The notes under the pieces were generated by a model. The model worked only from the letters and a program-made list of their open reading frames with translations. It did no database searches and had not been told where the DNA came from. 64,000 nucleotides of DNA from Deltaproteobacteria bacterium (GTDB lineage: Bacteria > Bdellovibrionota > UBA2394). The position numbers and the translations under genes are program-made. The stretch lies in the NCBI GenBank assembly GCA_017302715.1, contig JAFLCD010000001.1, forward strand, positions 310,001-374,000. The letters are read 5' to 3'. Shown piece after piece: positions 7,328 to 53,939 of this stretch (position 1 is the stretch's first letter; each line of letters opens with the position of its first letter).

Positions 7328-8419
7328 ATGATTATTGGCGTACCAAAAGAGATTAAGGACAATGAATATCGGGTCGGTTTAACTCCTGCAGGCGCAGCTG
7401 TGCTCACTCAGGATGGTCATGAAGTTTTCGTGCAAAAAAACGCGGGAATCGGAAGCGGACTCACCGATGAACATTATATTCAAGCGGGTGCGAAGATTTT
7501 AGATTCTGCCGCTGCGGTTTTTGACAAAGCCGAAATGATTATCAAGGTGAAAGAGCCTCAAGCGAACGAAGTCGCGATGATGCGCGAAGGCCAAGTGCTT
7601 TTCACTTATTTACATTTGGCTCCAGCTCCTGAACTCACCAAACAACTTTTGGATCGCAAAGTTTCGGGTATCGCTTACGAAACCATTCAACTCGATGATG
7701 GATCCTTGCCACTTCTTCGACCGATGTCCGAAGTTGCAGGTCGTGTAGCCGTTCAAATTGGCGCCCACTATTTACAAAAAGATAAAGGCGGCAGCGGGAT
7801 TTTGCTCGGCGCTGTTCCTGGTGTGAAGCCTGGTAAAGTGACCATCATCGGAGCCGGTATCGTGGGAATCAATTCGCTCAAGATGGCGATTGGTTTAGGC
7901 GCGCAAGTTTCGATCTTCGATGTGAACCCCGTTCGATTGGCATATCTCGATGATTTGTACGGTGGAAGAATCACCACGATCGTTGCGAATGCAGAAGCAA
8001 TTGCCGAAGAAGTTTCGCAATCTGATTTATTAGTGGGCGCGGTTTTGATCGCGGGCGCGAAAGCTCCTCGATTAGTTACGCGTGCTATGCTTGCAAAAAT
8101 GCGTCCGAACTCAGTCGCAGTAGATGTTTCGGTAGATCAAGGCGGATGCTTTGAGAGCACCAAACCTACAACTCACACGAATCCTACTTATTTTGATTCG
8201 GGAGTTTTGCATTATTGCGTTTCAAATATTCCTGGTGCCGTGGCGCGAACTTCGACTTTCGCTTTGACGAATGTGACTTTGCCTTATGCTCGAAAATTGG
8301 CGAATTTTGGGCTGCGTAAAGCTCTCAAAGAAGACCAAGCTTTGGCTAAAGGTTTGAACGTACATGCTGGCGAAATTACTCAGAAAGCTGTCGCCGAGGC
8401 CTACGAATCTTTCAGATAA
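7328..8419 (+). CDS. ald: alanine dehydrogenase
   Basis: 363 residues from ATG 7328. It interconverts L-alanine and pyruvate plus ammonia with NAD in the cytosol. The N-terminus [20 protein letters not shown] matches the family exactly at this start, so the longer open frame back to 7184 is rejected. Substrate-binding Arg (EYRVGL), Lys (IIKVKEP) and His (TYLHLAPAP) are present. The NAD Rossmann motif [13 protein letters not shown] and the catalytic Asp region ([14 protein letters not shown]) are intact. The length is close to the usual 370. It is a single gene, divergent from the membrane-protein pair and convergent, with an 8-base gap, to the next gene. Confidence 0.95.
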
Positions 8420-8427
8420 GTTAGGAT

Positions 8428-10137
8428 TTATTTTTTACAAGCTTTGATTAATGCCTTCAAGTGGCTGACGGTTTCATCGTCGAGTTCATTTTTAGATTGA
8501 GCCACAGCGCCTTCCATCAGTGGTGCCCATTTATCGCCCAGCGCTTGTTGAGCATCATTAGATTCTAACACCACCGTCATAAGAGCTGGATCCAACAAGA
8601 CTGCTTTTTGAAAAATATTGAAGACGATTTGAGTATTAGATTTCAAAAACTCGGGGCGCCTTGCTTCGGTAGAAAATTTGGATTTTCTTTTTTGTGCATC
8701 TTCTAAAATTTCTGATTCGGCTTGAGCCAAAATCTTTTGTTCAACATCTGAAGAAAAATAAAATTTTACTTCTGGAATTTGAAGAGCTTGAAGAACAATA
8801 TAAGGTTGATTTCGTACGATTCTAGAAATTTCACTTTTTAAGCCAGGATGTTTAGCGAGAGCTTGCGCTTTAATCCAAGCCAAATATTCTTTGGGCGAAT
8901 TTAGAATGAGCTCATCGATTTGATCATGCATTCCGATTTCTAACAAAAGCTGGGAAGGCTTGGACTGCGATTGAGAAACTTCTTTTTTACTGAATTCATG
9001 AGCCAATTTTACTAGCAGAGGATATTTCTTTAGTTCCTCAGGCAGTACTCCTCTCTTTGAAAAATCTTCAGATACATCTCTTATATGATCGTAATGCGTT
9101 GCTATACGTACAAACTCTTTACGTAAATCTGAGTTTATATGTTCAAGCAAACTTAAGATGCTATCCCAATTATTTCGAGTTCTCGCGATTTGTTTAAAAT
9201 TATCTGCAAAAAGAGGAACGAATTTTTCATCCAAATGAACCAGCCTCGCTAAAATATAAATTCTCAGTTCTTGCAGATCTTTTAATGCTGCATTTATTTT
9301 GCTCGAGTTATTTTCCCAGTCGGTCATTCTTATAATATCGTCCACTTGCGATTGAAGTTTTTGATCATGTTCATCGTCCCTAAAATGACTGACAGAAGGC
9401 TCTAAAGAAGTTGTCTCTAAGCTTAGCCACATAATGTCTGTGAATTCTTGGATAGATAATTTTTTTGCTCTCTTTTCTTTTAAGATTGCTGTCGCCAATT
9501 TTCTTGGATCATCGAGCGTGGATAACGCCATTCTTTTTGATAGATCATAAATAGGAAAACCAGCTTGATCGTATAAATTTTCTTGAATTAATTTTTGAAT
9601 AATTTTTCCAAATACCAATAGTCTATTTCGCAGGCTCAAATGCTTTTCTAAATCTTCTGTCGGGGCAACTTTGTGTGATGGTGCATCTTCATCGTTAGGA
9701 TTAGAAATTTTATTTGCTTCTCTCAAGATCATATGTGGATCCCAAAGAGAAAGGTGCGAACTGCTTAAGACAATGCTGTCAAAGGCGGCAACGGCGACAT
9801 CCCACTTTTCCAATTGAATGGCAGATTCAATGATCTGCTGAACTTTTGTAGAATCACCTTTGGTATACTTCCAAATAGCAAATCTTTGTTCTGCTTGAAA
9901 TGCTGGCTGATGAATAAAGCCCATTGTCTTAAGGCCTTTCATTAAAGATTTTTCCCAAGGGTGGTCATTCGAAGTGAAGTGTTCAAAGAATCCATCTGTG
10001 TCTGCGATGGATTTAACAAATTCATCGGTCTCTAAGGTTTGAGCTGCAAGATGATGAATATTTAATAAAAGTCCAAGAGCGCAAATGATGAGCTGAGAAA
10101 TAAAAAGTTTCGAGTTGAAAATGATATGCTGCCGCAT
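8428..10137 (-). CDS. large secreted alpha-helical protein, unknown function
   Basis: 569 residues with a signal peptide (LFISQLIICALGLLLNIHHLAAQ, about 10-33). The mature protein is almost all predicted helix, with repeated short helix pairs rich in Leu, Lys and Asp (for example EKWDVAVAAFDSIVL and ILSLLEHINSDLRKEFV). This suggests a TPR/HEAT-like solenoid, but no repeat matches a named family well enough. No catalytic motif is seen. It stands alone, divergent from the receiver-like gene at 10241. The protein is probably periplasmic or exported and may act as a protein-interaction scaffold. Confidence 0.7.
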   Translation of the reverse strand: MRQHIIFNSKLFISQLIICALGLLLNIHHLAAQTLETDEFVKSIADTDGFFEHFTSNDHPWEKSLMKGLKTMGFIHQPAFQAEQRFAIWKYTKGDSTKVQQIIESAIQLEKWDVAVAAFDSIVLSSSHLSLWDPHMILREANKISNPNDEDAPSHKVAPTEDLEKHLSLRNRLLVFGKIIQKLIQENLYDQAGFPIYDLSKRMALSTLDDPRKLATAILKEKRAKKLSIQEFTDIMWLSLETTSLEPSVSHFRDDEHDQKLQSQVDDIIRMTDWENNSSKINAALKDLQELRIYILARLVHLDEKFVPLFADNFKQIARTRNNWDSILSLLEHINSDLRKEFVRIATHYDHIRDVSEDFSKRGVLPEELKKYPLLVKLAHEFSKKEVSQSQSKPSQLLLEIGMHDQIDELILNSPKEYLAWIKAQALAKHPGLKSEISRIVRNQPYIVLQALQIPEVKFYFSSDVEQKILAQAESEILEDAQKRKSKFSTEARRPEFLKSNTQIVFNIFQKAVLLDPALMTVVLESNDAQQALGDKWAPLMEGAVAQSKNELDDETVSHLKALIKACKK

Positions 10138-10240
10138 GTTCTGCCTTCTTTGCCTGATTTAGAATAAGTGCAATTCTTATGCCACTTTCGCCATCTTTAG
10201 AGGGTTCTGAGGGTCCTAAATATGGGCTACAATAAGGTTT

Positions 10241-11014
10241 GTGACTTATCAATTTCGAGTTCTTTTTTGCGATTATGACGGTGAGTTTGAGTACGCCGAT
10301 ACGCTCTCTAAAATAGGGTATATCGTCGATCAAATTCGGCCCGATGCGCTTCGCCAAATCTCGGTGGGCGAACATCAAGTTTATATTTTTATGTTTCAGG
10401 CTGAAGAGCATATGAAAAAAGCCATGCGCACTTGCGAAAAATTAAAGGCCGCAGAACTGACGACTCCGATTTTTCTTTTGAATCGCGCTCCAGCTACTCC
10501 TACATTTTTAAATCATAAAACGGCAACGGGTGCTGCCGATGCTTATGTTGCCAACCCGAGTTCTGAAAATGTAGTGCTCGATGCGCTTGAAACTTTAGTG
10601 GGTTGTCCGGTTCCGATTTCCCTTAAAGGAAATATCCAACTTTTGCAGGAAGAAAAGGATCGGCTTGAAGAAATCGAAGAATATCGAAAGCGAATGACAG
10701 AGCTTGAAAAGAAAATCGAAGATCTTCAAGGCGATCGATCCAAAACTGAGGAAGCATTAGAAGCCCAGCGAAATTTTTATAAGCCTAAGTTGAAGGCGCT
10801 TTTGGAAGAGCAAAAAATCCAAGTTCAGAGTGAAACAGAACAATTGAAATTCGAACTCTCCGAAGTCGAGGCCAAACTTTTAGATCGCGAAATGAAAATC
10901 AAAAAACTGGAAGAAGCGATTAAGAGCCAAGAGAAAGCGCAGAATACTTTGAGAGAATTTTATCAGAGCAAACTTAAATCTCTAGAATCCGAAAAAAAAT
11001 CGAAGGCCAGTTGA
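10241..11014 (+). CDS. receiver-like domain with long coiled coil
   Basis: 257 residues from GTG 10241. Residues 1-125 have the beta-alpha order of a response-regulator receiver (RVLFCDYDGEFEYADTL at the start, TPIFLLNRAP and AADAYVANPSSENVVLDAL towards the end). The phosphoacceptor region reads VYIFMFQAEE and lacks the Asp, so it is probably a phosphorylation-independent pseudo-receiver. Residues about 133-257 form a continuous, highly charged coiled coil. A TACAAT hexamer only 7 bases before the start and a weak AAGG raise the possibility of a leaderless transcript. It is likely a cytoplasmic scaffold or polarity protein; the function is inferred only. Confidence 0.7.
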   Translation: MTYQFRVLFCDYDGEFEYADTLSKIGYIVDQIRPDALRQISVGEHQVYIFMFQAEEHMKKAMRTCEKLKAAELTTPIFLLNRAPATPTFLNHKTATGAADAYVANPSSENVVLDALETLVGCPVPISLKGNIQLLQEEKDRLEEIEEYRKRMTELEKKIEDLQGDRSKTEEALEAQRNFYKPKLKALLEEQKIQVQSETEQLKFELSEVEAKLLDREMKIKKLEEAIKSQEKAQNTLREFYQSKLKSLESEKKSKAS

Positions 11015-11032
11015 GTTTTGGCCAGTGAAGTA

Positions 11033-11067
11033 AAAAAAGGCCCTCAGATATTTCACTGAAGGCCTTT
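11033..11067. terminator. bidirectional intrinsic terminator
   Basis: AAAGGCC-c-TCAG (11036-11047) pairs with CTGA-a-GGCCTTT (11056-11067). On the minus strand the stem runs into TTTTTTT, making a strong terminator for the hexapeptide-repeat gene. On the plus strand only TTT follows, so it is weaker for the receiver-like gene. It sits between the two convergent genes. Confidence 0.85.
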
Positions 11068-11099
11068 GGTCCTCGTCCTCCGATATAAACTAGAAGTGC

Positions 11100-12368
11100 T
11101 TAGTTTTCTTCTCTGCTAACAGTGCCACCTAAATTTAAAATTCTATTGTTCATGGCTTCAAGAATATCAATTTCTTGCCATGTGGCTTCGCCAAATTCAT
11201 TGCTTGGAACAAAAGCGATAGTTTGGTTTGGATCCACGAGATCAATGAATCCTTTAAAGGCAAAAGTGATTCCAGAGTTTTCAACATAACCTTCTACGAC
11301 AACTGCTCTGTCTTGCAGAATCTGTCTGTTGTTGATGACCACATCTCCTTCTTGCAAGATCACGCTTCGGCCTGCTCGGTCGGCAAGTTTTTGCGCCACT
11401 TGATCGGTAAGTCTTCCCATTCCATCTTGAAATCGAATTTGAGTATCAAGAGAGAAATCGCTGACGGCCACCACGACATCTCTAAACTGTGGAGTTGGGT
11501 GATACACTCGAGTGTATCGAGAGATCGTCATATTTAGACCACGGTTGTAGTAACCTTGCTCAAACCAAGCTCGCGAACATTCTGCATCGACGCTGTTGAG
11601 ATAGAAGGCTTGCCAAAGTGGAATCGAAAGTAAAACTCCCACATCCGCAATCACACGAGTTTCAAAATAGTAACCGCCATGAAATCCATATCGTCTAAAA
11701 GGTCGATAGTGGTTGGAATAATTGACGTAATAATTTTGATAAACGTTTTGGCGAACAATGATCGGATTAAAATAGTTGATCTTAAAAAAATCTCGCTGCC
11801 GATCGATTCTCACTTTTAAATTATAGTTATCTTCAAAACGATTCATTCGCTGACGAGTGCTGTCGATGCGTTGGCGAGTCCAATTATCTCGAGGAGTACT
11901 TTGGTGACCTCTCCAGTTTGAGGAGCGTGGGTCATAGCGATCAGGTGCTCGTGTCGGGTGAGTGCCGCCTTGAGGGCGAGTGTTCTGAGTATGTGTCGTG
12001 TTTTGTGGACGCGCGTTTCCGCCCCAACGAGTGGATGGATTATTGAAATTGGGTTGCGAGTGAACAGGTGGTTGAACTCGAACCGAAGGTTGTGTTCGTA
12101 CTGGCGGCTGAGATCGCACATTTGGCTGCGAACGAACAGGCGGTTGCGACCTAACGGGAGGTTGCGAACGAGTAGGTGGTTGAGAACGCGTAGGATTTTG
12201 TCCACGCACGGGTGGCTGCGAGCGCGTAGGCGGCTGCGACTTAACAGTTGGTTGAGTTTTTCTTGTCGGAGCAGCTACTGCTATTTGTAAAAATCCTGTG
12301 CTCACCAGAAACACAGAACTTACAGAAACTATTTTGTTAAACTTTTTTCCCTGATTGAAAATATTCAT
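11100..12368 (-). CDS. secreted protein with SQPPVR hexapeptide repeats
   Basis: 422 residues. A signal peptide ends near VSTGFLQIAVAA (about 33). Residues 37-108 are about twelve hexapeptide repeats of the form SQPPVR/SQPPTR, a basic proline-rich arm typical of wall- or polysaccharide-spanning linkers. Residues 110-190 are rich in Asn, Gly and Arg. Residues about 200-250 are very rich in Tyr and Phe (YQNYYVNYSNHYRPF). The C-terminal 170 residues look folded, with one beta-rich domain (VVVEGYVENSGITFAFKGF). Proline-rich arm, aromatic patch and a compact domain together suggest an envelope or outer-membrane-associated protein. No enzymatic family is recognised. Confidence 0.75.
   Translation of the reverse strand: MNIFNQGKKFNKIVSVSSVFLVSTGFLQIAVAAPTRKTQPTVKSQPPTRSQPPVRGQNPTRSQPPTRSQPPVRSQPPVRSQPNVRSQPPVRTQPSVRVQPPVHSQPNFNNPSTRWGGNARPQNTTHTQNTRPQGGTHPTRAPDRYDPRSSNWRGHQSTPRDNWTRQRIDSTRQRMNRFEDNYNLKVRIDRQRDFFKINYFNPIIVRQNVYQNYYVNYSNHYRPFRRYGFHGGYYFETRVIADVGVLLSIPLWQAFYLNSVDAECSRAWFEQGYYNRGLNMTISRYTRVYHPTPQFRDVVVAVSDFSLDTQIRFQDGMGRLTDQVAQKLADRAGRSVILQEGDVVINNRQILQDRAVVVEGYVENSGITFAFKGFIDLVDPNQTIAFVPSNEFGEATWQEIDILEAMNNRILNLGGTVSREEN
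12045..12260 (-). repeat. 18-base tandem repeats encoding SQPPVR
   Basis: About twelve 18-base units inside the gene above, encoding the hexapeptide series. Units differ mostly at synonymous or Val/Thr positions, so the array looks old but could still change length by slippage. It is coding sequence, not a CRISPR: there are no unique spacers. Confidence 0.85.
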
Positions 12369-42299: not shown

Positions 42300-43943
42300 A
42301 TGAAATCGAATTCTGATTCAGGGTCTCCTGATTCTTCGAACAAAACCGTAGAGGTGCAAGTGCAAAATACAGGAAGAGGTCGCCGTCCAAGTGGTGGTGG
42401 CCGAGGACGTGGTCGCGGCAGCAATGATCGTAATGATAGAGGAGGCGGTGGCTATGGTGGTCGCGGTGGTCGAATCCGCGGTGATGAACAACCCCGAGAT
42501 GATCGCTATGGAATGCGCGGACCTCAACCATTAGATATGGTCGATCCTGCGATTGGGTCAGAAGATGAGACGATAGAACAAGAAGGTTTAGGACCAGAAC
42601 TCGTTGCAGGAAATACTGATGCAACTGGAGCCCCAGCAAATGCAAATGGAGATGGCTCGGCTACTCCAAATGTCGAAGGTGGTCCTCAAGTTACGATTCA
42701 CTTAAAAGAACTCAAAGCAAAATCGGCCGCCGAAATGGTGACGATTGCTGAATCTTATGGAGTTCAAAATGCAAGTTCGCTTCGCAAACAAGATTTAATT
42801 TTTGCGATCTTAAAAAATTCGGCAAAACAAAATGTAGCAGTTTATTCCGAAGGCGTTTTAGAAGTTCTTCCAGATGGTTTCGGATTTTTACGTTCACCGG
42901 ACTTCAATTATTTGCCGGGTCCGGATGACGTTTATATTTCTCCTTCGCAAGTTCGACGATTTAATTTGCGAACTGGAGATACCGTCAGCGGTGAAATTCG
43001 CCATCCCAAAGAAGGAGAGCGCTATTTCGCGATGCTTAAAGTGGAGTCGATTAATTTCGATAAACCCGAAAGCGCACTTCATAAAATTTTATTTGATAAC
43101 TTAACACCGCTTTATCCAACCAAGCAGGTGAAGCTTGAAACCGATTCCGAAAATATGACGGGACGGATTATGGATTTACTTTGCCCGATCGGAAAAGGTC
43201 AGCGCGGTTTGATCGTCGCTTCACCTCGAACGGGTAAGACGATGATCTTGCAGGGAATCGCCAATTCGATTTCGACCAATCATCCCGAAGTAAAAATGAT
43301 TGTGCTTTTGATCGACGAGCGACCTGAAGAAGTGACCGATATGTCTCGAAACGTAAAAGCCGAAGTGGTTTCGTCCACTTTCGATGAGCCTGCGCAACGT
43401 CACGTTCAAGTGGCTGAGATGGTCATTGAAAAAGCAAAACGTTTGGTTGAGCACGGCCACGATGTGGTGATTTTGCTCGATTCGATTACTCGTTTGGCTC
43501 GCGCCTACAATACGGTCGTTCCTCCGTCCGGAAAAATTCTCTCCGGAGGTGTGGACGCAAACGCCCTTCACCGACCTAAGCGATTCTTTGGATCCGCTCG
43601 GAATGTCGAAGAAGGTGGCTCTTTGACCATCATTGCAACTGCGTTGATCGAAACTGGTAGCCGCATGGACGAAGTTATTTTCGAAGAGTTCAAGGGTACT
43701 GGTAATATGGAAGTCGTTTTGGACCGTAAATTAGCCGATAAACGAACTTATCCGGCCATCGACATCAACAAATCAGGAACTCGAAAAGAAGAATTGCTCC
43801 TCGTACCCAATGTGCTACATCGTGTGTGGGTCTTGCGTAAGCTGCTAGCGCCGCTTTCGCCCATCGATAGTATGGAGTTCATTTTGGATAAGATCCAAAA
43901 GACCAAGACGAACAAAGAGTTTTTGGAGAGTATGAATCAATGA
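42300..43943 (+). CDS. rho: transcription termination factor Rho with RGG-rich N-terminal extension
   Basis: 547 residues, longer than E. coli Rho (419). Residues about 25-75 are an Arg/Gly-rich tract ([18 protein letters not shown]) and about 80-125 an acidic stretch. The RNA-binding helices and cold-shock-like domain follow ([20 protein letters not shown]). The ATPase has Walker [10 protein letters not shown], Walker [17 protein letters not shown], the Q-loop region [12 protein letters not shown] and the R-loop region. It should be an active ring helicase ending transcription. rpmE overlaps its end by ATGA. Confidence 0.96.
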
Positions 43944-44169: not shown

Positions 44170-45240
44170 ATGAAGGACCGTTTGAAAACGGTGCTCGATC
44201 GTTATGAGCATCTCACTTCAGAACTTTCGAATCCAGACGTCATTAAAGACGCCAATCAGTTTCGTAAACTTTCTCAAGAGCGCGCGGGTTTAGATAAACT
44301 CGTCGCGTTCGCGCAAGAATATCTTTCGCTCAGTGAACGCAAAATCGAATCCGAAGAACTTCTGAAAGCGGGCGGTGAGATGGCCGAACTCGCTCACGAA
44401 GATCTTGCCGAGATTAATCAGAGATTTCCTGAGCTCGAGAAAAAAATTCTCTTTGAACTTCTGCCTAAAGATCCGCACGAAGGAAAAGATATTTTTATTG
44501 AAATTCGCGCGGGCGCGGGCGGAGATGAAGCCTCGCTTTTTGCAGCCGATCTTTTTCGAATGTATTCCAAATTTGCTCTTAAGAAAAAATGGCGAATGGA
44601 AATCATGTCCGAAAGTTTTTCTGAAAAAGGCGGATACAAAGAAGTGGTAGGAACTATCTCAGGAGCCGACGCTTACAATACTTTAAAATATGAATCGGGA
44701 GTTCATCGCGTGCAAAGAGTTCCCACTACCGAAGCGATGGGTCGAGTGCATACGTCGACCGTGACGGTAGCGATCATGCCCGAAGCTGAAGAAAATGATT
44801 TAGTGATTAACGAAAAAGATTTGCGCATCGACGTTTTTCGCGCCGGTGGTAAGGGCGGTCAGGGAGTTAACACAACCGACTCCGCCGTTCGCGTGGTTCA
44901 CTTACCTACGAATACCGTGGTGGTTTGCCAAGACGAGCGCTCGCAAATTAAAAATAAAGCGAAGGCGATGAAAGTTTTACGCGCGAGAATTTTGGACGCG
45001 CAGGCTTTAGCGCAATCGACGGAGCGTGCAGCTTCTCGAAAAGCTCAAGTGGGAACAGGCGATAGATCTGAACGCATTCGCACTTATAATTTTCCTCAAG
45101 AGCGGGTGACTGATCATCGCATCGGGCTTACTTTGCACAGGTTATCTTCGGTGATCGAAGGGGATTTAGACGAGATTGTGGAAGCCCTTCAACAGGAAGA
45201 ATACACCAGACTGCTGGCGGAAGAGTCAAAAGCCGGGTGA
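44170..45240 (+). CDS. prfA: peptide chain release factor 1
   Basis: 356 residues, the normal length. It recognises UAA and UAG in the ribosomal A site and triggers peptide release. The GGQ motif is in RAGGKGGQGVNTTDSAVR. The stop-codon reading region is RVPTTEAMGRVHTSTVTVA, with a Pro-Thr-Thr that corresponds to the RF1 tripeptide (PxT class, not the SPF of RF2). prmC, two genes downstream, methylates the GGQ Gln. The layout rho-rpmE-prfA-prmC is conserved in many bacteria. Confidence 0.96.
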   Translation: MKDRLKTVLDRYEHLTSELSNPDVIKDANQFRKLSQERAGLDKLVAFAQEYLSLSERKIESEELLKAGGEMAELAHEDLAEINQRFPELEKKILFELLPKDPHEGKDIFIEIRAGAGGDEASLFAADLFRMYSKFALKKKWRMEIMSESFSEKGGYKEVVGTISGADAYNTLKYESGVHRVQRVPTTEAMGRVHTSTVTVAIMPEAEENDLVINEKDLRIDVFRAGGKGGQGVNTTDSAVRVVHLPTNTVVVCQDERSQIKNKAKAMKVLRARILDAQALAQSTERAASRKAQVGTGDRSERIRTYNFPQERVTDHRIGLTLHRLSSVIEGDLDEIVEALQQEEYTRLLAEESKAG

Positions 45241-45307
45241 GACGTAGCTCGGAGTCCGTTGTACGAGAACTCTATTCAAATTGAATGGCTTATGGCAGTT
45301 TCACCTT

Positions 45308-45868
45308 ATGAAAAACTTTTTAAGTCTTTTGATCCTTAGCGCAAGTTTATCGGCTTGCTCTCAAAAAGCTGAAATCAAAACTGAACTTAAACCTGTGACA
45401 GGTGAAAAAATTCTTTCGACTAAAGTTTTCAATTTAGGCGGGCGAGATGGATATAATTCTATGAATGGTCGACGCGATCGTTCGGATGGGCCTTTGGATA
45501 TTTCGTTTGTAAGAATTGATCGGCCCAATCTTCCGTCTGTTTATGAAGTTCAAATATTTTCAAATGGAGCTTCGCCACGTTTAAAAATTAAAAATGAAAA
45601 ATCTTTAAGCTTTATTTTGCCTAATCAGATTATTGTGCTTTCGCCCACTTCTCAAAGTTCAAATGACGAAGAAAAAATGACAGAATATTTTCCTAGATTC
45701 AGAAAAGAATCGGCGACGTATTCTAATCTTACTTTGGATCAGCTAAGCCCTTTGCTAGTAAAAACAGAAGCTCCGATAGTAAAAGTTGAAGGCGAAAAGC
45801 GCTCTGAGGCAATTGCTCTTAACGCCGATGCCACAGCCGCACTTGAAGCGCTTATTGCTCAACCTTAA
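45308..45868 (+). CDS. hypothetical lipoprotein
   Basis: 186 residues from ATG 45308, which starts a clean lipoprotein signal (MKNFLSLLILSASLSAC). The longer TTG frame from 45281 adds a polar stretch that would spoil the signal, so it is rejected. The mature part has a short Gly/Asp/Arg-rich region (GGRDGYNSMNGRRDRSDGPL) and a beta-rich domain. No family is recognised. It is inserted between prfA and prmC, and its stop lies 3 bases before the prmC ATG, so it is co-transcribed with them. Confidence 0.72.
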   Translation: MKNFLSLLILSASLSACSQKAEIKTELKPVTGEKILSTKVFNLGGRDGYNSMNGRRDRSDGPLDISFVRIDRPNLPSVYEVQIFSNGASPRLKIKNEKSLSFILPNQIIVLSPTSQSSNDEEKMTEYFPRFRKESATYSNLTLDQLSPLLVKTEAPIVKVEGEKRSEAIALNADATAALEALIAQP

Positions 45869-45871
45869 TTC

Positions 45872-46693
45872 ATGACAATTGCCGAACTTATTCGCGAGGC
45901 GAGCGAAGAGCTAAAAAAAATAAATATTGATCGCGCAACTTTTGAGGCGCGTCTTTTGCTCGCTCATGTGATGAGCGCTACTCCTGAAGAAATGATTCAA
46001 CGGGATCATGAAAGAGTTTCTTCAGAGATCAAATCTCAATTTAAAAATTTAATTCAACGTCGCACTCAATTTGAACCTGTCGCTTATTTACTTGGATATA
46101 AAGAATTTTTTGGCCGTAAGTTTGATGTAAATTCAAATGTTTTAATTCCACGTCCTGAGACTGAAAGTTTAGTGCATGGAATTTTGGGATGGATTCAGCA
46201 AAATGAAATTCACTCTGCAAAAATTTTAGAACTTGGAACGGGTAGCGGGTGCATTGCCGTTTCACTCGCTGCGGAACTTGGTGAATCTTTTGAAGTCACA
46301 GCCGTAGATATTTCTGAAGAGGCGCTAAAAATCGCGAATCAAAATGCAAAACAAAACGATGTGAACGTTCATTTTTTAAAAGCTGATATGCTTGCGCCAA
46401 GTTTTGGAAATTGGAATGTGATTGTTTCAAATCCTCCTTATATTCCAGCAAAAGAAATCCCGACACTTCAGCTCGATATTTTAAATTTTGAACCTCATTT
46501 AGCTCTAGAAGGGGGCGATGACGGATTAAAATTTTTGAAAGTTATTTTGAATTTCTGGTCTAAGCATCTAACAAAGCCCGGACTCATCGCACTTGAAACT
46601 CATGGGCCCGAGCAAATTTCTCTTTTAAGTGAAGCGACTCAAAACTTCAAAACTTGGCAAAACGGCCCCCATCTTTTTGCTGAGCTCATTTAG
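45872..46693 (+). CDS. prmC: release-factor glutamine methyltransferase
   Basis: 273 residues. It methylates the Gln of the GGQ motif in RF1 and RF2 using S-adenosylmethionine. The SAM site is ILELGTGSGCIAVSLA at about 116-131, and the substrate motif NPPY is in VIVSNPPYIPAKE at about 184-196. The N-terminal helical domain has the usual form (ELIREASEELKKINID). Downstream of prfA in the same operon, fitting its role. Confidence 0.96.
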   Translation: MTIAELIREASEELKKINIDRATFEARLLLAHVMSATPEEMIQRDHERVSSEIKSQFKNLIQRRTQFEPVAYLLGYKEFFGRKFDVNSNVLIPRPETESLVHGILGWIQQNEIHSAKILELGTGSGCIAVSLAAELGESFEVTAVDISEEALKIANQNAKQNDVNVHFLKADMLAPSFGNWNVIVSNPPYIPAKEIPTLQLDILNFEPHLALEGGDDGLKFLKVILNFWSKHLTKPGLIALETHGPEQISLLSEATQNFKTWQNGPHLFAELI

Positions 46694-46799: not shown

Positions 46800-48044
46800 A
46801 TGGATTCGCTCGTTGTCGAAGGTGGCCAAATATTAAAAGGAAAAGTTGAAGTTCCTCCCGCAAAAAATGCAGCGCTTCCGCTTTTGTGTTTATCACTGCT
46901 TACAGCTGAAAAAGTTTCTTTCGAAAGTTTGCCTGATGTTGCTGACATTCAAAGTATGCAAAAGATGCTTGAGCATCTTGGAGTTGAGAAACTCGATAAG
47001 AATTTATTCCAATGCAAAACCATAAAATCTGTTCAAGCGCCTTATGAATGGGTGCGCAAAATGCGAGCTTCGATTTTGGTTTTAGGTCCGCTACTTGCTC
47101 GCGCAGGTCGCGCTGAAGTTTCAATGCCAGGTGGGTGTGCGATTGGTGAGCGACCGGTGGGAATTCATCTCGATGGACTTCGGGCGATGGGAGCCACCAT
47201 TAATCTCGAAAATGGTTATATTCAGGCGGAGTGTAAAAAACTTCGTGGAACAAAATTTGTTCTCGATTTTCCAACGGTGACGGGGACCATCAATTTAGTC
47301 ACAGCGGCCGCACTTGCTGAAGGCGAAAGTCTTTTAGAAAATGTAGCGTGCGAACCCGAGGTGGTTGAAATTGTTCAAGCGCTCAGACAAATGGGCGCAA
47401 AAATTTCTGGTGAAGGGACTTCTCAAATAAAAATTACAGGAGTTCCAAAATTAAATGGTCTCAAATGGCAGATTCAGCCCGATCGAATTCAATTACTTAC
47501 CTACCTCGCCGCAGGTGCTTTGACCGGTGGAGAAGTAGAGTGCACACCTTATCGACAGGGTACTCTCAACGCTGTCGTTCAAAAATTTAGAGAGCTCGGA
47601 TGTGAGATGATTGAAACATCTGAAAGTTTAAGACTCAAAGCTCCGCAGAGATTGAAGTCGATTCATTTAGAGACTGCACCCTTTCCTGGATTTCCAACCG
47701 ATGGCCAAGCGCAATTTATGGCGTGTACAACTTTGGCGGCGGGTTCAAGCACGATCCGCGAACTTGTTTTTGAAAATCGTTTTCAACATGTTGCTGAACT
47801 TCGGCGCATGGGAGCAAAAATTGAAGTCGACGGAAATACGGCCGTGATTTCAGGAGTAGATCATTTAAGTGGGGCGAGCGTGATGGCTTCGGATTTGCGA
47901 GCATCTGCTTCGCTTGTATTAGCCGGCTTAAGTGCGCATGGAAAAACGAAAGTATTACGCGTCTATCACCTCGATCGAGGTTATGAAATGCTCGAAGCAA
48001 AGCTCCGAAAATTAGGTGCAAAAATTACTCGAGAGAAAGAATGA
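46800..48044 (+). CDS. murA: UDP-N-acetylglucosamine 1-carboxyvinyltransferase
   Basis: 414 residues. First committed step of peptidoglycan synthesis, adding PEP to UDP-GlcNAc in the cytosol. Lys-Asn of the substrate site (PPAKNAALPLL) is at about 22-23. The loop Cys that binds fosfomycin and PEP is in SMPGGCAIGERP at about 114-118. The acid Asp is in PGFPTDGQAQFMA at about 297-309. The C-terminal RGYEMLEAKLRKLGAKI is standard. It is preceded by a 106-base gap with no gene, in which no clear promoter was recognised. It functions with the upstream GlmU product. Confidence 0.96.
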   Translation: MDSLVVEGGQILKGKVEVPPAKNAALPLLCLSLLTAEKVSFESLPDVADIQSMQKMLEHLGVEKLDKNLFQCKTIKSVQAPYEWVRKMRASILVLGPLLARAGRAEVSMPGGCAIGERPVGIHLDGLRAMGATINLENGYIQAECKKLRGTKFVLDFPTVTGTINLVTAAALAEGESLLENVACEPEVVEIVQALRQMGAKISGEGTSQIKITGVPKLNGLKWQIQPDRIQLLTYLAAGALTGGEVECTPYRQGTLNAVVQKFRELGCEMIETSESLRLKAPQRLKSIHLETAPFPGFPTDGQAQFMACTTLAAGSSTIRELVFENRFQHVAELRRMGAKIEVDGNTAVISGVDHLSGASVMASDLRASASLVLAGLSAHGKTKVLRVYHLDRGYEMLEAKLRKLGAKITREKE

Positions 48045-48045
48045 A

Positions 48046-49386
48046 ATGAAAGTTTTAAAATCAGGCACCAGAGAATTTTCTGAAGGCATTGAACAACTTC
48101 TTTCTCGAAGGCATCAATTGATGGATGCGCTTTCATCGACGGCTGACGATTTAATTTTGCGTTATCGAAAACGTGGCGAAGAACTTCTCTACGAAAATGC
48201 GAGAGAAATGGACGGAGTTCATCTCAGTGAAAATCAGCTTTGGGTAGATCCTTCGTTCATTAAATCTTCCTATAAAAAACTTTCGCCTGAAGTTCGCGAA
48301 GCTCTCGAAGCTACCAAGGAAAGAGTATTAAGATTTCAGGAGGAGTTAAAACTCTCTTCATTTCAGCGCGAAGAAGAATCCGGAGTCCTTATTGGCACCG
48401 AAATTCGTCCACTCGATCGAGTAGGAATTTACGTGCCCGGCGGAAGAGCCAATTATTTTATGTCGCTGATGTTTTGTGCAGCGCCCGCAAGAATCGCAGG
48501 AGTTGGAGAAATCATTGTAGCCACTCCACCTAAGAAAAATTTAGAAGAGCCTTTTGTAGATCCAGCGATTTTATATACCGCAAAACTTTTTGATATTTCA
48601 AAAATTTTAGTCTCTGGCGGACCTGCCGCTTTAGCCGCCCTAGCTTTTGGAACAAAAAAATCCCTGCCGGTTGAACGACTTTTTGGTTCTGGCGGAAAAC
48701 TTTCTGCAGTCGCAAAGCAAAGACTGAGCGGCTACATTGGCATTGGCGGTTTTGCGGGGCCGTCAGAAACAGCTTACATCTGCGATCAAACGTCTTCGGT
48801 AAGTATTTTAGCTTCGGATATTTTGGCGCGAGCGGATTCTGATTTGAACGCTGAGATTTTTGTATTCCATACTAAAGAAAATTTCATGGAAGCCTTACTC
48901 GAAGGATTGGCAGAAGGCATACGCGCTATTCGGGATCAACGTTCGCGAAGCGGCATTGAAGCTTGCCTTGAAAAAAATACGCGTTTTTTCATCGTTAAAA
49001 ATATCGACGAGAGTTTTGCGATCTGTAATCGAATTGCTCCCGGCACTCTTTGCTTAAGTCTTAAAGATGCTTCGGACTATGTGGACAAAGTAAAAGCCTG
49101 CGGAAGTTTACTTTTAGGTGAATACACCCCTTCTTTTGAGGCAGATTTGACGGGCGTGCCTTCAGGCTTAGTTCCCTCCATGGGTTCAGCGGCTTTTACC
49201 GTTTCGCTTTCACCGGCCTATTTTGTAAGGCGCTTTGGAATCACCGAAATCAGCCGCCAAGCCCTTGAGCGCTATTCTGAAAGCTCTATCGCATTGGCTA
49301 AAGAAGTGGGTTATACGACCCACGAATATTCTTATCGAAAACGCCTCGAAGCCGGGGATACTTCGCATGGCCAAAAGAAGACTTAA
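48046..49386 (+). CDS. hisD: histidinol dehydrogenase family protein, probable pseudoenzyme
   Basis: 446 residues from ATG 48046, two bases after the murA stop; the frame to 48016 is inside murA and rejected. The fold is clearly HisD: VGIYVPGGRANYFMSLMF, PARIAGVGEIIVATPP, KILVSGGPAALAAL, GPSETAYICD. But the catalytic Glu-His pair (E. coli 326-327) reads Gly333-Thr334 (NRIAPGTLCL), the zinc ligands Gln and His of the QAEH motif read Arg262 and Ser265 (LARADS), and the His of NHVLP reads Gly (SGLVPS). Zinc-site Asp (EADLTG) and C-terminal His426 remain. It is therefore probably unable to oxidise histidinol; no other his gene is nearby. Confidence 0.87.
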   Translation: MKVLKSGTREFSEGIEQLLSRRHQLMDALSSTADDLILRYRKRGEELLYENAREMDGVHLSENQLWVDPSFIKSSYKKLSPEVREALEATKERVLRFQEELKLSSFQREEESGVLIGTEIRPLDRVGIYVPGGRANYFMSLMFCAAPARIAGVGEIIVATPPKKNLEEPFVDPAILYTAKLFDISKILVSGGPAALAALAFGTKKSLPVERLFGSGGKLSAVAKQRLSGYIGIGGFAGPSETAYICDQTSSVSILASDILARADSDLNAEIFVFHTKENFMEALLEGLAEGIRAIRDQRSRSGIEACLEKNTRFFIVKNIDESFAICNRIAPGTLCLSLKDASDYVDKVKACGSLLLGEYTPSFEADLTGVPSGLVPSMGSAAFTVSLSPAYFVRRFGITEISRQALERYSESSIALAKEVGYTTHEYSYRKRLEAGDTSHGQKKT

Positions 49387-49428: not shown

Positions 49429-49626
49429 ATGACTCAAATACGCATTAGAGACGGCGAATCCTTCGAGGGCGCCTTAAAACGTTTTAAAAAAATGATCGAA
49501 AAATCCGGTGTTTTGACCGAGCTTCGCAAGCGCGAATTCTATGAAAAACCTTCGGTAAAGCGAAAGCGAAAAGCTATTGCTGCCGTAAAGCGAAATCAAA
49601 GAACCGCAAGATCTCCGAAATTTTAA
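49429..49626 (+). CDS. rpsU: 30S ribosomal protein S21
   Basis: 65 residues. Matches S21 across its length ([32 protein letters not shown], then the basic tail [16 protein letters not shown]). It starts the conserved macromolecular-synthesis cluster rpsU-yqeY-dnaG-rpoD, 42 bases after the HisD-like gene. Confidence 0.96.
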
Positions 49627-49630
49627 TTTT

Positions 49631-50080
49631 ATGATCGCTTTCGAGCAAAGACTTTCCGACGAGTTGAAAGACGCTCTTCGCTCTAAAGACCAGGTCAAAC
49701 TGGATTGTCTTCGTGCGATGAAGTCGGCGCTCAAGTACAAACACGCGGAAAAAAATCAGGCTGACGTCTCTGAAGAAGAAGCCATTCAGATTTTTCAAAC
49801 GATGATTAAGCAGCGCAAAGATTCGATCGAGCAATTCGAAAAATTTGGCCGAGCTGAAGATGCTGCAAAAGAAAAACGTGAGATTGACGTAATCACAACT
49901 TATTTGCCGCAACAACTTTCGGAATCTGAAATCAAAACGATGATTGGTTCGGCAATTTCTAGTTCAGGTGCAAAGACAGCTGCTGATCTCGGCAAAGTGA
50001 TGAAAGAATTGAAGCCAAAAATTGTAGGTCGTGCGGATGCAAAAGTTGTAACCGACCTGATTCGCGCAGCTTTGTCTTAA
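49631..50080 (+). CDS. yqeY: GatB/YqeY-domain protein
   Basis: 149 residues, the full YqeY domain: MIAFEQRLSDELKDALRSKD, LRAMKSALKYKHAEKN, YLPQQLSESEIKTMI and KVMKELKPKIVGRADAKVV. It resembles the C-terminal tRNA-binding part of GatB, but its own role is not established. Five bases after rpsU, in the classic rpsU-yqeY-dnaG-rpoD order. Confidence 0.95.
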   Translation: MIAFEQRLSDELKDALRSKDQVKLDCLRAMKSALKYKHAEKNQADVSEEEAIQIFQTMIKQRKDSIEQFEKFGRAEDAAKEKREIDVITTYLPQQLSESEIKTMIGSAISSSGAKTAADLGKVMKELKPKIVGRADAKVVTDLIRAALS

Positions 50081-50116: not shown

Positions 50117-51940
50117 TTGAAGAATCAGCAGATTGTAGATTCCGTACGACAGTCTTTGGATATCGTCCAAATCATTGGCGAAGTCGTGCCTCTCAAAAAA
50201 AGTGGTAATAATTTTTTTGGCTGCTGTCCGTTTCATAACGAAAAGACCCCTTCATTTTCTGTCAGCTCAACAAAGCAACTCTTTCATTGTTTTGGCTGCA
50301 AAGTAGGCGGAGATGTTTTTAAATTCGTTCAACTTTATTTTAAATGGGATTTTCCTCAAGCACTTGAAGAGCTGGCCAAGCGTGCTGGTATTCAAATTGA
50401 AAAAATAAAAACAGATCCTACGTGGGAAGAGGGTTTTCGCATTCTTGAAATTGCGATGATGACGTTTGAAGATGCTTTAGATTCAAAAGAGGGAGAAGAT
50501 TTTCGAAGTTATTTGAAGGCTAGAAAAATTCCTGAAAAACTTTGGAAAGATTTTAGACTTGGCGCTCATACGGGTGGCTTTCAGCTTCTTTCGGATAAAC
50601 TTCATGAAAAAAATCTTTCGCGTGAAATCGCTGTAAAATTGGGACTTTTAGGTCGCAGCGAACGAGGAGAATACTTCGATCGCTTTCAAGGCCGCGTGAT
50701 ATTTCCCATTCTCGATGAAAAAGGTCGCCCGCGCGGTTTTGGGGCACGTAGCCTAGGAAACGATCATCCTAAATATTTGAATTCTCCTAAGTCCGCCCAT
50801 TTTGATAAAGGCCGACTTTTCTATGGCATGCATCTTGCTTGTTCTGGAAGTGGGAAAGGGACGATTTCGAGAAAGGGTTACTCCGTTCTCGTCGAGGGGT
50901 ATTTAGATGTGATTGCATTACACGAATACGGCATTTCAAATGCCTTAGGTTCGATGGGAACCGCTTTAACTTCTGATCAGATTCGGCTTTTGAAGCGCTG
51001 GAGTCCGCGCGTGATTTCGCTTTACGATGCCGATCGTGCTGGTCTTCAAGCCACCGAAAAAAATCTTGGAAATTTTTTGAAGGAGGGTCTCGAATCTAAA
51101 GTCGTTGTTCTTCCAAACTCTAAAGATCCCGATGCACTTTTGCATGACGAGACAAAGTCCCCCGAAGATCGAAAATTACTTTTGAAAAAAGCATTCGATG
51201 AATCGATTTTGGCAGTGGATTACTTGGTTCAAAACACAGTCTTAGTTGAAAAAAATGCCATGAACCGAGGCAAAAAACTCAGAAGTCTTGTCGATATTTT
51301 AGATCAAGTTCCAGATGAGATTGAACGTGCCGTGCTAAAAAAAGATTTAGCTGCTCGTTTTGAGCTGCCCGAGAATCTGCTCTTCCCCAAAGCCGCTCCA
51401 GAAGCTCAAAGGCCGCCACCCATGGGTGCCAGAAAAGCTGTTGATTTAGACAAGGATTTAGGGCGCTGGGAGAGGGAAATTTTGCGTTTTCTAGTGCTTT
51501 CGGGCGAAAAGGCCGAGTTTAGCTTGACCGAGCTCGTGCCGTACCTCTTTTCGACCTCAAAATGGGGTAGTCTGCTTTTGCGTTTAATAGAACTTCAGCT
51601 AAAGTCTCAAACGATTGCGGAACTCCATTGGTTGAATGAAGTGGAGTCCGAAAATCAATCGACGATTCGAGAGTGGGCTTTGGAGATGAAGCCCGAGTTA
51701 AATTCGAATGAGGCAGTCGCTTTATGGGCTGATTTGGTTCGAGGCGTGAAGCGTTCTTATTTTCAAAGAGAAAGTGAGCGCATTCAAAAAAATTTGATCG
51801 CGGCAGAGGAAGCCAGAGATAGCGATTTAGTTCGAAGACTTTTGACCGAGAAGCAAGATTTGATGAAATTTTTTAAAGGCCAAGAAAAATTGAGCCTTAC
51901 AAAACAGCCAGTAGGAGTTTATGAAAATGAAAAAAGCTAG
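50117..51940 (+). CDS. dnaG: DNA primase
   Basis: 607 residues from TTG 50117, with GAGGGG 3 bases upstream. It makes RNA primers for replication. The N-terminal zinc ribbon is [13 protein letters not shown] and [11 protein letters not shown]. The RNA-polymerase core and TOPRIM domain follow ([27 protein letters not shown]). The C-terminal domain that binds helicase starts at about 430. It overlaps rpoD by 20 bases. Confidence 0.96.
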
Positions 51941-53939
51941 CAAACCTAATGCTAAAAAAGTTGCACCAAAACAAAAAGCCGTCGCACCAAAAGGTAAGGC
52001 CGCTGCTCCTAAAAAAGCTGTTGTAGCGAAGGCTGCAGAAGTTTCTAAAAAAGGTAAGAGCGCAGAAGCAGAAGAAGTAGCTGCTTCGACAAAAGGAACT
52101 GCACCCGCAAAAGGTGAAGGCAAAGCGAAAGGCCGAAAAAGCCAACGCGAAATGAAAGAAGTTAAGCAGCTTATCCACCTTGGAAAAGAAAAAGGTTATC
52201 TCACATTTGAAGAAGTAAACGATGTGCTTCCAACAGATGTTACATCTGAAGAAGAAATTGATGATGTGATGTTGATGCTCGACGAAATGGAAATCGAAGT
52301 CGTCGACGAAGCTGAAGATTTTAAACCTAAGACAACTAAAGCCGCTGCGGCTGCATCCGAAGAACACACTTTCGACGATGAAGAAGATGACGATGCTTTA
52401 AGTCGAAGCAATGACCCCATCCGAATGTATTTGCGAAAAATGGGTCAAGTTTCGCTGCTCACTCGTGATGGCGAAGTTGAAATTGCTAAGCGAATTGAAG
52501 AAGGCGAAAGCGAAGTTTTAAGTGTCGTTTTAAGATCTGATTTCGGTATCAAAGAAATTTTGAATTTAGAAGATCGTCTAAAACGAAAAACGATCCGCGT
52601 TAGCGATGTCATTCGTGGTTACGACGATTCTGAGCAGGCTCAATTCAACGAAGCTAATCAGTGTGATCGAGTTTTAAAACTTATTGCTAAAGTTCGACGT
52701 AAATACGGCGAACTTGCTGAAATTTGGGATTCAATTAAGGCCGGTTCTAAAAAAACCATCGAAGAAGGTAAGAAGCGAATGGAAAAAATTCGCGATGATA
52801 TCTTCGAAATTTTGAAAGAGATCGATCTCAATCGTAAATTCATCAATAAAATTTCTGCTAAACTTAAAAACCTCGTCAGCCGTGTTGAAAAAAGTCAGCA
52901 ATCGGTTACTGCCGTTGAGAAAAGTTTAGGTCTTGATGAAAATGAAATTAAAGAACTCGTTGTTACTTTAGATAAAGGAAAAGAAGATCCTAAAAAAGTT
53001 GCGACAAAATTAAAAGTCGACGCGGAACAACTCGCTGAATCGATCGAAAATTACAAAGCTGCAGCAAAACGTATCCAAATGATCGAAGACGAAGTGCATT
53101 TGGAAGCGACTGAAATCAAACGTATTCATAAGCTTGTAAAAAACGGTGAGCTTAAAGCTGAGCGAGCAAAAAACGAACTCGTCGAAGCGAATTTGCGTCT
53201 TGTTGTTAGTATCGCCAAAAAATATACGAATCGCGGACTTCAGTTCCTCGATTTGATTCAAGAAGGAAATATCGGCTTAATGAAAGCCGTTGATAAATTT
53301 GAATACCGAAGAGGTTACAAATTTTCGACTTACGCCACTTGGTGGATTCGCCAAGCGATCACTCGCGCGATCGCCGATCAAGCGCGAACGATTCGTATTC
53401 CAGTGCATATGATCGAGACGATCAATAAGCTGATTCGCACCTCAAGACACTTGGTTCAGGAATTAGGTCGCGAGCCTACTCCAGAAGAAATTGCAGAGAA
53501 AATGGAAATGCCTCTCGCCAAAGTACGCAAAGTTTTGAAAATCGCTAAAGAGCCTATCTCTCTCGATACTCCGATCGGAGAAGAGGAAGATTCGCATCTT
53601 GGAGATTTCATCGAAGATGGCAATGCTGTTTCGCCAACAGAAGCGGTCGTGAACTACAATCTTTCGGCTCAGACTCGAAAAGTTTTAGCGACCTTAGCTC
53701 CTCGAGAAGAAAAAGTTCTTCGTATGCGTTTTGGAATCGGTGAAAAATCAGATCATACTTTGGAAGAAGTGGGTCAAGATTTCGAAGTTACTCGTGAACG
53801 TATTCGACAAATCGAAGCGAAAGCTTTGCGAAAACTTCGTCATCCATCACGCGCTAAGAAACTTAAAACCTTCATTGATAATGTTAATGGGGGTAACGGC
53901 GGCGGCCACACCAACGGTAACAGCGGCAGCGCCAGTTAG
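51921..53939 (+). CDS. rpoD: RNA polymerase primary sigma factor (sigma70)
   Basis: 672 residues. AGGAG (51913-51917) is 3 bases before ATG 51921 and 9 before ATG 51927, so the second may be the true start. A Lys/Ala-rich leader (about 1-75) precedes region 1.1 ([20 protein letters not shown]). Then come region 1.2 ([21 protein letters not shown]), a non-conserved region, region 2 ([34 protein letters not shown]), region 3 and region 4 with the -35 helix ([20 protein letters not shown]). All promoter-contact regions are intact, so it is the housekeeping sigma factor. Confidence 0.97.

Follow-up and report, generated by a model that had tools for sequence, protein, structure and literature searches.

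Can a gene of amino-acid biosynthesis outlast both its catalytic residues and its pathway, and what would it then be kept for? This question is raised by a stretch of 64,000 nucleotides (hereafter the window) from an uncultured, UBA2394-type relative of Bdellovibrio within the Bdellovibrionota; in the naming of PMC8265224, UBA2394 is a class of this phylum, to which the genomes compared here would belong by their shared family and by the record name of one of them. An earlier note, made from the sequence alone, had described a paralogue of histidinol dehydrogenase (HisD) that has lost its active site and has been retained in a new role. Here the hisD-derived gene is called hisD' and its product HisD'.

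Results

An intact HisD fold in a conserved gene cluster

The hisD' gene is an intact frame of 446 codons from ATG to stop, and both the complete frame and the HisD fold read by eye in the earlier note are confirmed by our data. PF00815 (Histidinol_dh) covers residues 21-434 with profile positions 3-411 of 411 (Pfam, E 5.7e-87), and the HisD chains of the PDB align with HisD' over nearly its whole length (HMMER). An AlphaFold model was computed from the window protein, three orthologues and four canonical HisD proteins (mean pLDDT 83, pTM 0.78). The closest solved structures to this model are the HisD enzymes of Pseudomonas aeruginosa, Medicago and Brucella (Z about 40, 413-422 residues aligned), with P. 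aeruginosa HisD (8xsq) as the top PDB match (VIA-align, Z 40.7, 413 residues). Residues 365-387 are the sole long low-confidence stretch within the fold; otherwise confidence is lowest in the C-terminal tail. By profile coverage and structure match HisD' thus has the full-length fold of HisD (EC 1.1.1.23).

The gene lies between murA and rpsU, as had been noted before (Table 1). The cluster prfA-prmC-murA-hisD'-rpsU-yqeY-dnaG is found in all four loci that carry hisD', followed by rpoD wherever the contig or locus extends far enough. At the murA/hisD' junction the murA stop and the hisD' start are one nucleotide apart in the window, overlap by 4 nt in two other loci (G004, G003) and by 1 nt in the remaining one (G001), junctions that, as far as sequence can tell, resemble those of translationally coupled genes.

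Table 1. Positions in the window of the conserved cluster, of hisD' and of its former functional sites.
Feature	Position	Strand	Basis or remark
prfA, first gene of the conserved cluster	44170..45240	+	conserved in orthologous loci
prmC	45872..46693	+	orthologous-locus comparison
murA	46800..48044	+	stop TGA 48042-48044, one base before the hisD' start; 60-69% identical in three orthologous loci
hisD' (putative hisD-derived pseudoenzyme gene), 446 aa	48046..49386	+	PF00815, AF2 model vs HisD structures, residue mapping
former zinc-ligand region, codons 256-265 (Gln259 to Arg262, His262 to Ser265)	48811..48840	+	alignment to E. coli HisD
former catalytic Glu-His pair, now Gly333-Thr334	49042..49047	+	alignment; Gly/Gly/Gly/Ala and Thr/Val/Leu/Gln in four orthologues
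former substrate loop GDYxSGxNHVLPT, residues 365-387, Gly374 for the NHVLP His	49138..49206	+	alignment, AF2 model
rpsU, next gene downstream of hisD'	49429..49626	+	PF01165, E 6e-23
yqeY	49631..50080	+	PF09424
dnaG	50117..51940	+	orthologous-locus comparison
rpoD	51921..53939	+	orthologous-locus comparison

Several local peculiarities were seen around the cluster. In the window a 195-aa lipoprotein-like ORF without Pfam match (45281-45868) separates prfA from prmC, an insertion private to this genome among those compared; the three orthologous loci have these two genes side by side. The UBA2394 genome carries an insertion of about 4.5 kb between hisD' and rpsU (L020, 7373-11873), which includes a small CopG/BrnA-type DNA-binding-like ORF and a very long ORF (7692-11873). 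Further upstream in the window, 42300-43943 reads by eye as a Rho-like transcription termination factor whose N-terminus is extended by about 100 low-complexity residues rich in Gly, Arg and Asn.

Of the order's five genomes, four, all from different genera, carry an orthologue of hisD', always between murA and rpsU, and the four proteins are 43-53% identical to each other. Besides the window's genome, the records are Bacteriovoracaceae bacterium UBA2394, Deltaproteobacteria bacterium CG11_big_fil_rev_8_21_14_0_20_45_16 and Bradymonadales bacterium DLM2.Bin98; these three are metagenome assemblies, and all four assemblies are mutually consistent. A true loss of the gene from the fifth genome (G002, 76% complete) was considered and rejected: since murA has no match there either, the locus is probably absent from the assembly.

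The active site is lost in every orthologue

In HisD a Glu and a His act as bases (PMC5585171, PMC11382572), and zinc is ligated by His, Asp, His* and Gln (Medicago numbering, PMC5585171). For residue mapping, HisD' was aligned with E. coli HisD (NC_000913 hisD) and with ten canonical HisD proteins from other Bdellovibrionota. The catalytic pair Glu326-His327 of E. coli corresponds to Gly333-Thr334 of the window protein. Two zinc ligands have changed (Gln259 to Arg262, His262 to Ser265) and two are kept (Asp360 as Asp367, His419 as His426), and the His of the NHVLP motif, His367, is Gly374. The losses and the two kept ligands had been described in the earlier note and hold in our alignment. 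When HisD' was aligned separately to PDB HisD chains with HMMER, the Glu-His, QAEH and NHVLP motifs fell in the identical register. Further losses are Gln188 to Ala194, Asn211 to Gly217, Asn366 to Ser373 and Glu414 to Val421. Gln188 and Asn211 (E. coli numbering) are what we take to be NAD contacts.

The same positions have been lost throughout the clade. In the four orthologues Glu326 is replaced by Gly, Gly, Gly and Ala, His327 by Thr, Val, Leu and Gln, Gln259 by Arg, Arg, Leu and Val, and His367 by Gly in every case. Gln188 is absent from all four, and Asn211 is lost or varied. His419 is retained in all, the Asp360 position holds Asp, Glu, Asp and Asp, and the His262 position Ser, Arg, His and His. 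The NAD loop PGGRANY is three residues shorter in two orthologues, the same two that keep His262. Most simply, catalysis would have been lost once, before the four genera diverged, and the zinc and NAD sites would then have eroded differently; with Asp367 and His426 kept, and His262 in half of the proteins, some members of the clade may still bind metal.

Could HisD' nevertheless still work as a histidinol dehydrogenase, or as a HisD-like dehydrogenase whose catalytic residues have moved elsewhere? All four proteins do score 275-322 bits against the NCBIfam hisD equivalog TIGR00069, above its cut-off of 243.8, but they all lack Glu326, His327, Gln259 and His367, and the genomes hold no hisG, hisB or hisI to supply histidinol. 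In HpsN, a dehydrogenase of the same superfamily, the replacements E318A and H319A lower kcat/KM 580-fold and 240-fold (PMC11382572). A working enzyme of this kind is therefore extremely improbable, and we consider it very probable that HisD' is not a histidinol dehydrogenase.

A lone hisD-derived gene in genomes without the histidine pathway

In the window's genome, which spans 2.39 Mb and is 96% complete, no second PF00815 gene, canonical or otherwise, was found, so that "paralogue", as used in the earlier note, has to be dropped. The note's remark that no other his genes are nearby holds. Searches for hisG, hisB (imidazoleglycerol-phosphate dehydratase, IGPD) and hisI came back empty for all five genomes of the order, whereas the same models were positive in 13 of 14 control genomes. 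Histidine synthesis is therefore gone from the order, and its members are likely histidine auxotrophs. Wide amino-acid auxotrophy has been stated in general terms for the Bdellovibrionota (PMC11988736).

The sole strong HisA/HisF-family match of the window's genome (G000:C1:190155) was rejected as evidence of the pathway, its neighbours being a HisH-like amidotransferase and, upstream, neuB. The region (L046, 2147-5917; G000:C1, about 187146-190916) runs from neuB through an uncharacterised ORF and the gene of a HisH-like glutamine amidotransferase to that of a HisF-like protein, an arrangement that suggests a glycan cluster of the N-acetyl-sugar amidotransferase (WbuX/Y/Z-like) type.

Constraint instead of decay

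Pairwise pS among the four hisD' genes is 0.77-0.83 and saturated, and pN is 0.34-0.41; because dS is saturated, these values are given in place of dN/dS. Differences affect 0.25-0.32 of sites at codon position 2, against 0.65-0.72 at position 3. The gene changes faster than murA and prfA, at a rate close to that of prmC and yqeY in the same cluster. In the tree the HisD' clade has full support. Its stem measures 2.17 changes per site, and its end branches, at 0.39-0.76, are much like those of canonical HisD. These branch lengths point to a burst of change after which constraint returned, not to decay, and the substitution pattern indicates purifying selection. The 11 canonical HisD proteins share 75 invariant columns; all four HisD' proteins preserve 25 of them, mostly Gly, Pro and Ala with a few charged core residues. 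Conversely, about 36 columns are constant in HisD' and differ from every canonical row, for example Cys307, Cys352, Trp66, Gln98, Glu100, Glu110 and Asp264.

The possibility that hisD' is a functionless, slowly decaying relic, kept in place by an essential operon in which frameshifts could have polar effects on rpsU, yqeY and dnaG, draws on the loss of the pathway, on the essential genes at both flanks and on a murA-hisG-hisD order that is likely ancestral. Against it stand the conserved amino-acid sequence (pN about half of pS at saturation, position 2 far below position 3), the kept Gly/Pro/Lys/Asp core residues, and relatives in which murA runs directly into rpsU, so that the slot can be emptied. 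We judge this reading improbable; with an intact frame in the same slot in four genera, saturated pS and restrained pN, the earlier claim that the gene is retained holds.

Origin behind murA

Profile searches found HisD absent from most of 290-368 Bdellovibrionota genomes. Outside the order, 11 genomes of the phylum have a canonical HisD, in the order hisG-hisD-hisC-hisB wherever the locus is readable, and in the stretches read these hisGDCB operons are not adjacent to murA. In four other families of the phylum the series prfA-prmC-murA-rpsU-dnaG has an empty slot, with murA running straight into rpsU. Weak profile matches in three genomes (G259, G289, G248; E 3e-4 to 8e-3 over 368 genomes) were taken as chance, and a scan of viral contigs with the HisD' clade's own profile gave no match.

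The place behind murA is not odd in itself, because a murA-hisG-hisD order is known outside the phylum, here on the basis of the locus tags of P. aeruginosa (murA, hisG and hisD are PA4450, PA4449 and PA4448; PMC3327687) and of one IMG/VR contig (L043) with murA 450 bases upstream of a canonical hisD. A horizontal origin from the phylum's own hisGDCB operons is not favoured, as the HisD' clade branches apart from them, nearer to the Brucella/Pseudomonas kind, though on a long stem, and as those operons are not murA neighbours where read. The long branch makes some horizontal transfer possible. The simplest account, and the most likely one, would be an ancestral murA-(hisG)-hisD block of which the order kept only hisD, in altered form.

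Discussion

Our analysis argues for a murA-linked hisD that was inherited vertically in UBA2394-type Bdellovibrionota and survives as a pseudoenzyme after loss of histidine synthesis, acting as a non-catalytic binding partner or regulator. We give this reading a probability of roughly 0.55.

Three comparisons define what HisD' is. With the murA-linked HisD of the P. aeruginosa kind (EC 1.1.1.23; PF00815, TIGR00069) it shares the full-length fold, about 27% identity and the place behind murA; unlike that enzyme it lacks the catalytic Glu-His pair, Gln259 and the NHVLP His, and its genome lacks the histidine pathway. With HpsN, the DHPS 3-dehydrogenase of the HisD superfamily, it shares the fold (Z 37.9 to 9cp7) and the divergence from HisD, but HpsN keeps Glu318/His319, the zinc and a G-R-Y-A/S-H motif (PMC11382572), whereas in HisD' the pair is lost and the motif is G-R-A-N-Y or deleted. 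With pseudoenzymes in general it shares descent from an enzyme, the loss of catalytic residues in every orthologue and a sequence conserved under purifying selection; a corresponding role would be our inference here. A literature search found no described HisD pseudoenzyme.

Having lost the Glu-His pair together with the Gln ligand and the NHVLP His, HisD' is not expected to carry out the known two-step oxidation, and loss of the NAD loop in half of the clade disfavours any other NAD-linked reaction. From these losses together we prefer a non-catalytic dimer and place a new enzyme second; on balance, the role is rather non-catalytic than catalytic. A new enzyme would be a HisD scaffold rebuilt for another substrate, using the newly fixed residues of the clade together with the retained Lys224, Glu241, Asp258 and His426. 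In its favour, conservation is strong (43-53% identity), the approximately 36 clade-specific invariant residues, Cys307, Cys352, Asp264 and Glu110 among them, could also mark a new active site, and the family has switched substrate before, in HpsN (PMC11382572). Yet HpsN retained its Glu-His pair in doing so (PMC11382572), while in HisD' glycine or varying residues occupy the former pair and the NHVLP region. Two of the four proteins have a deletion of the NAD-binding loop, and Gln188 and Asn211 are lost or varied. We therefore regard a rebuilt enzyme as unlikely, though worth keeping in view.

The preferred non-catalytic protein would still form the domain-swapped HisD dimer, would be made together with MurA, and would act without chemistry, by binding or regulating MurA or a neighbouring translation or envelope function; any particular partner is a guess, as is the ligand of the remnant cleft that HisD' perhaps uses. 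A more specific version is doubtful: HisD' would serve MurA (the UDP-GlcNAc enolpyruvyl transferase) in these bacteria as its own subunit or regulator, produced in step with it by translational coupling. The link to MurA rests on gene order, and as this gene order is probably ancestral a functional tie need not follow.

Conclusions

Since TIGR00069 scores all four proteins above its cut-off, automatic annotation names each of them histidinol dehydrogenase, and a pathway step would thereby be ascribed in error to bacteria that are likely histidine auxotrophs. The intact gene, despite its lost catalytic residues, suggests a new role for the protein. The link to MurA, if true, would mean that peptidoglycan synthesis is controlled at a new point, in the first step of building the cell wall. 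With one gene in one fixed locus across four genera, and relatives with an empty slot for comparison, HisD' would offer a clear example from nature of how an enzyme of amino-acid synthesis can survive its own pathway by becoming something else.
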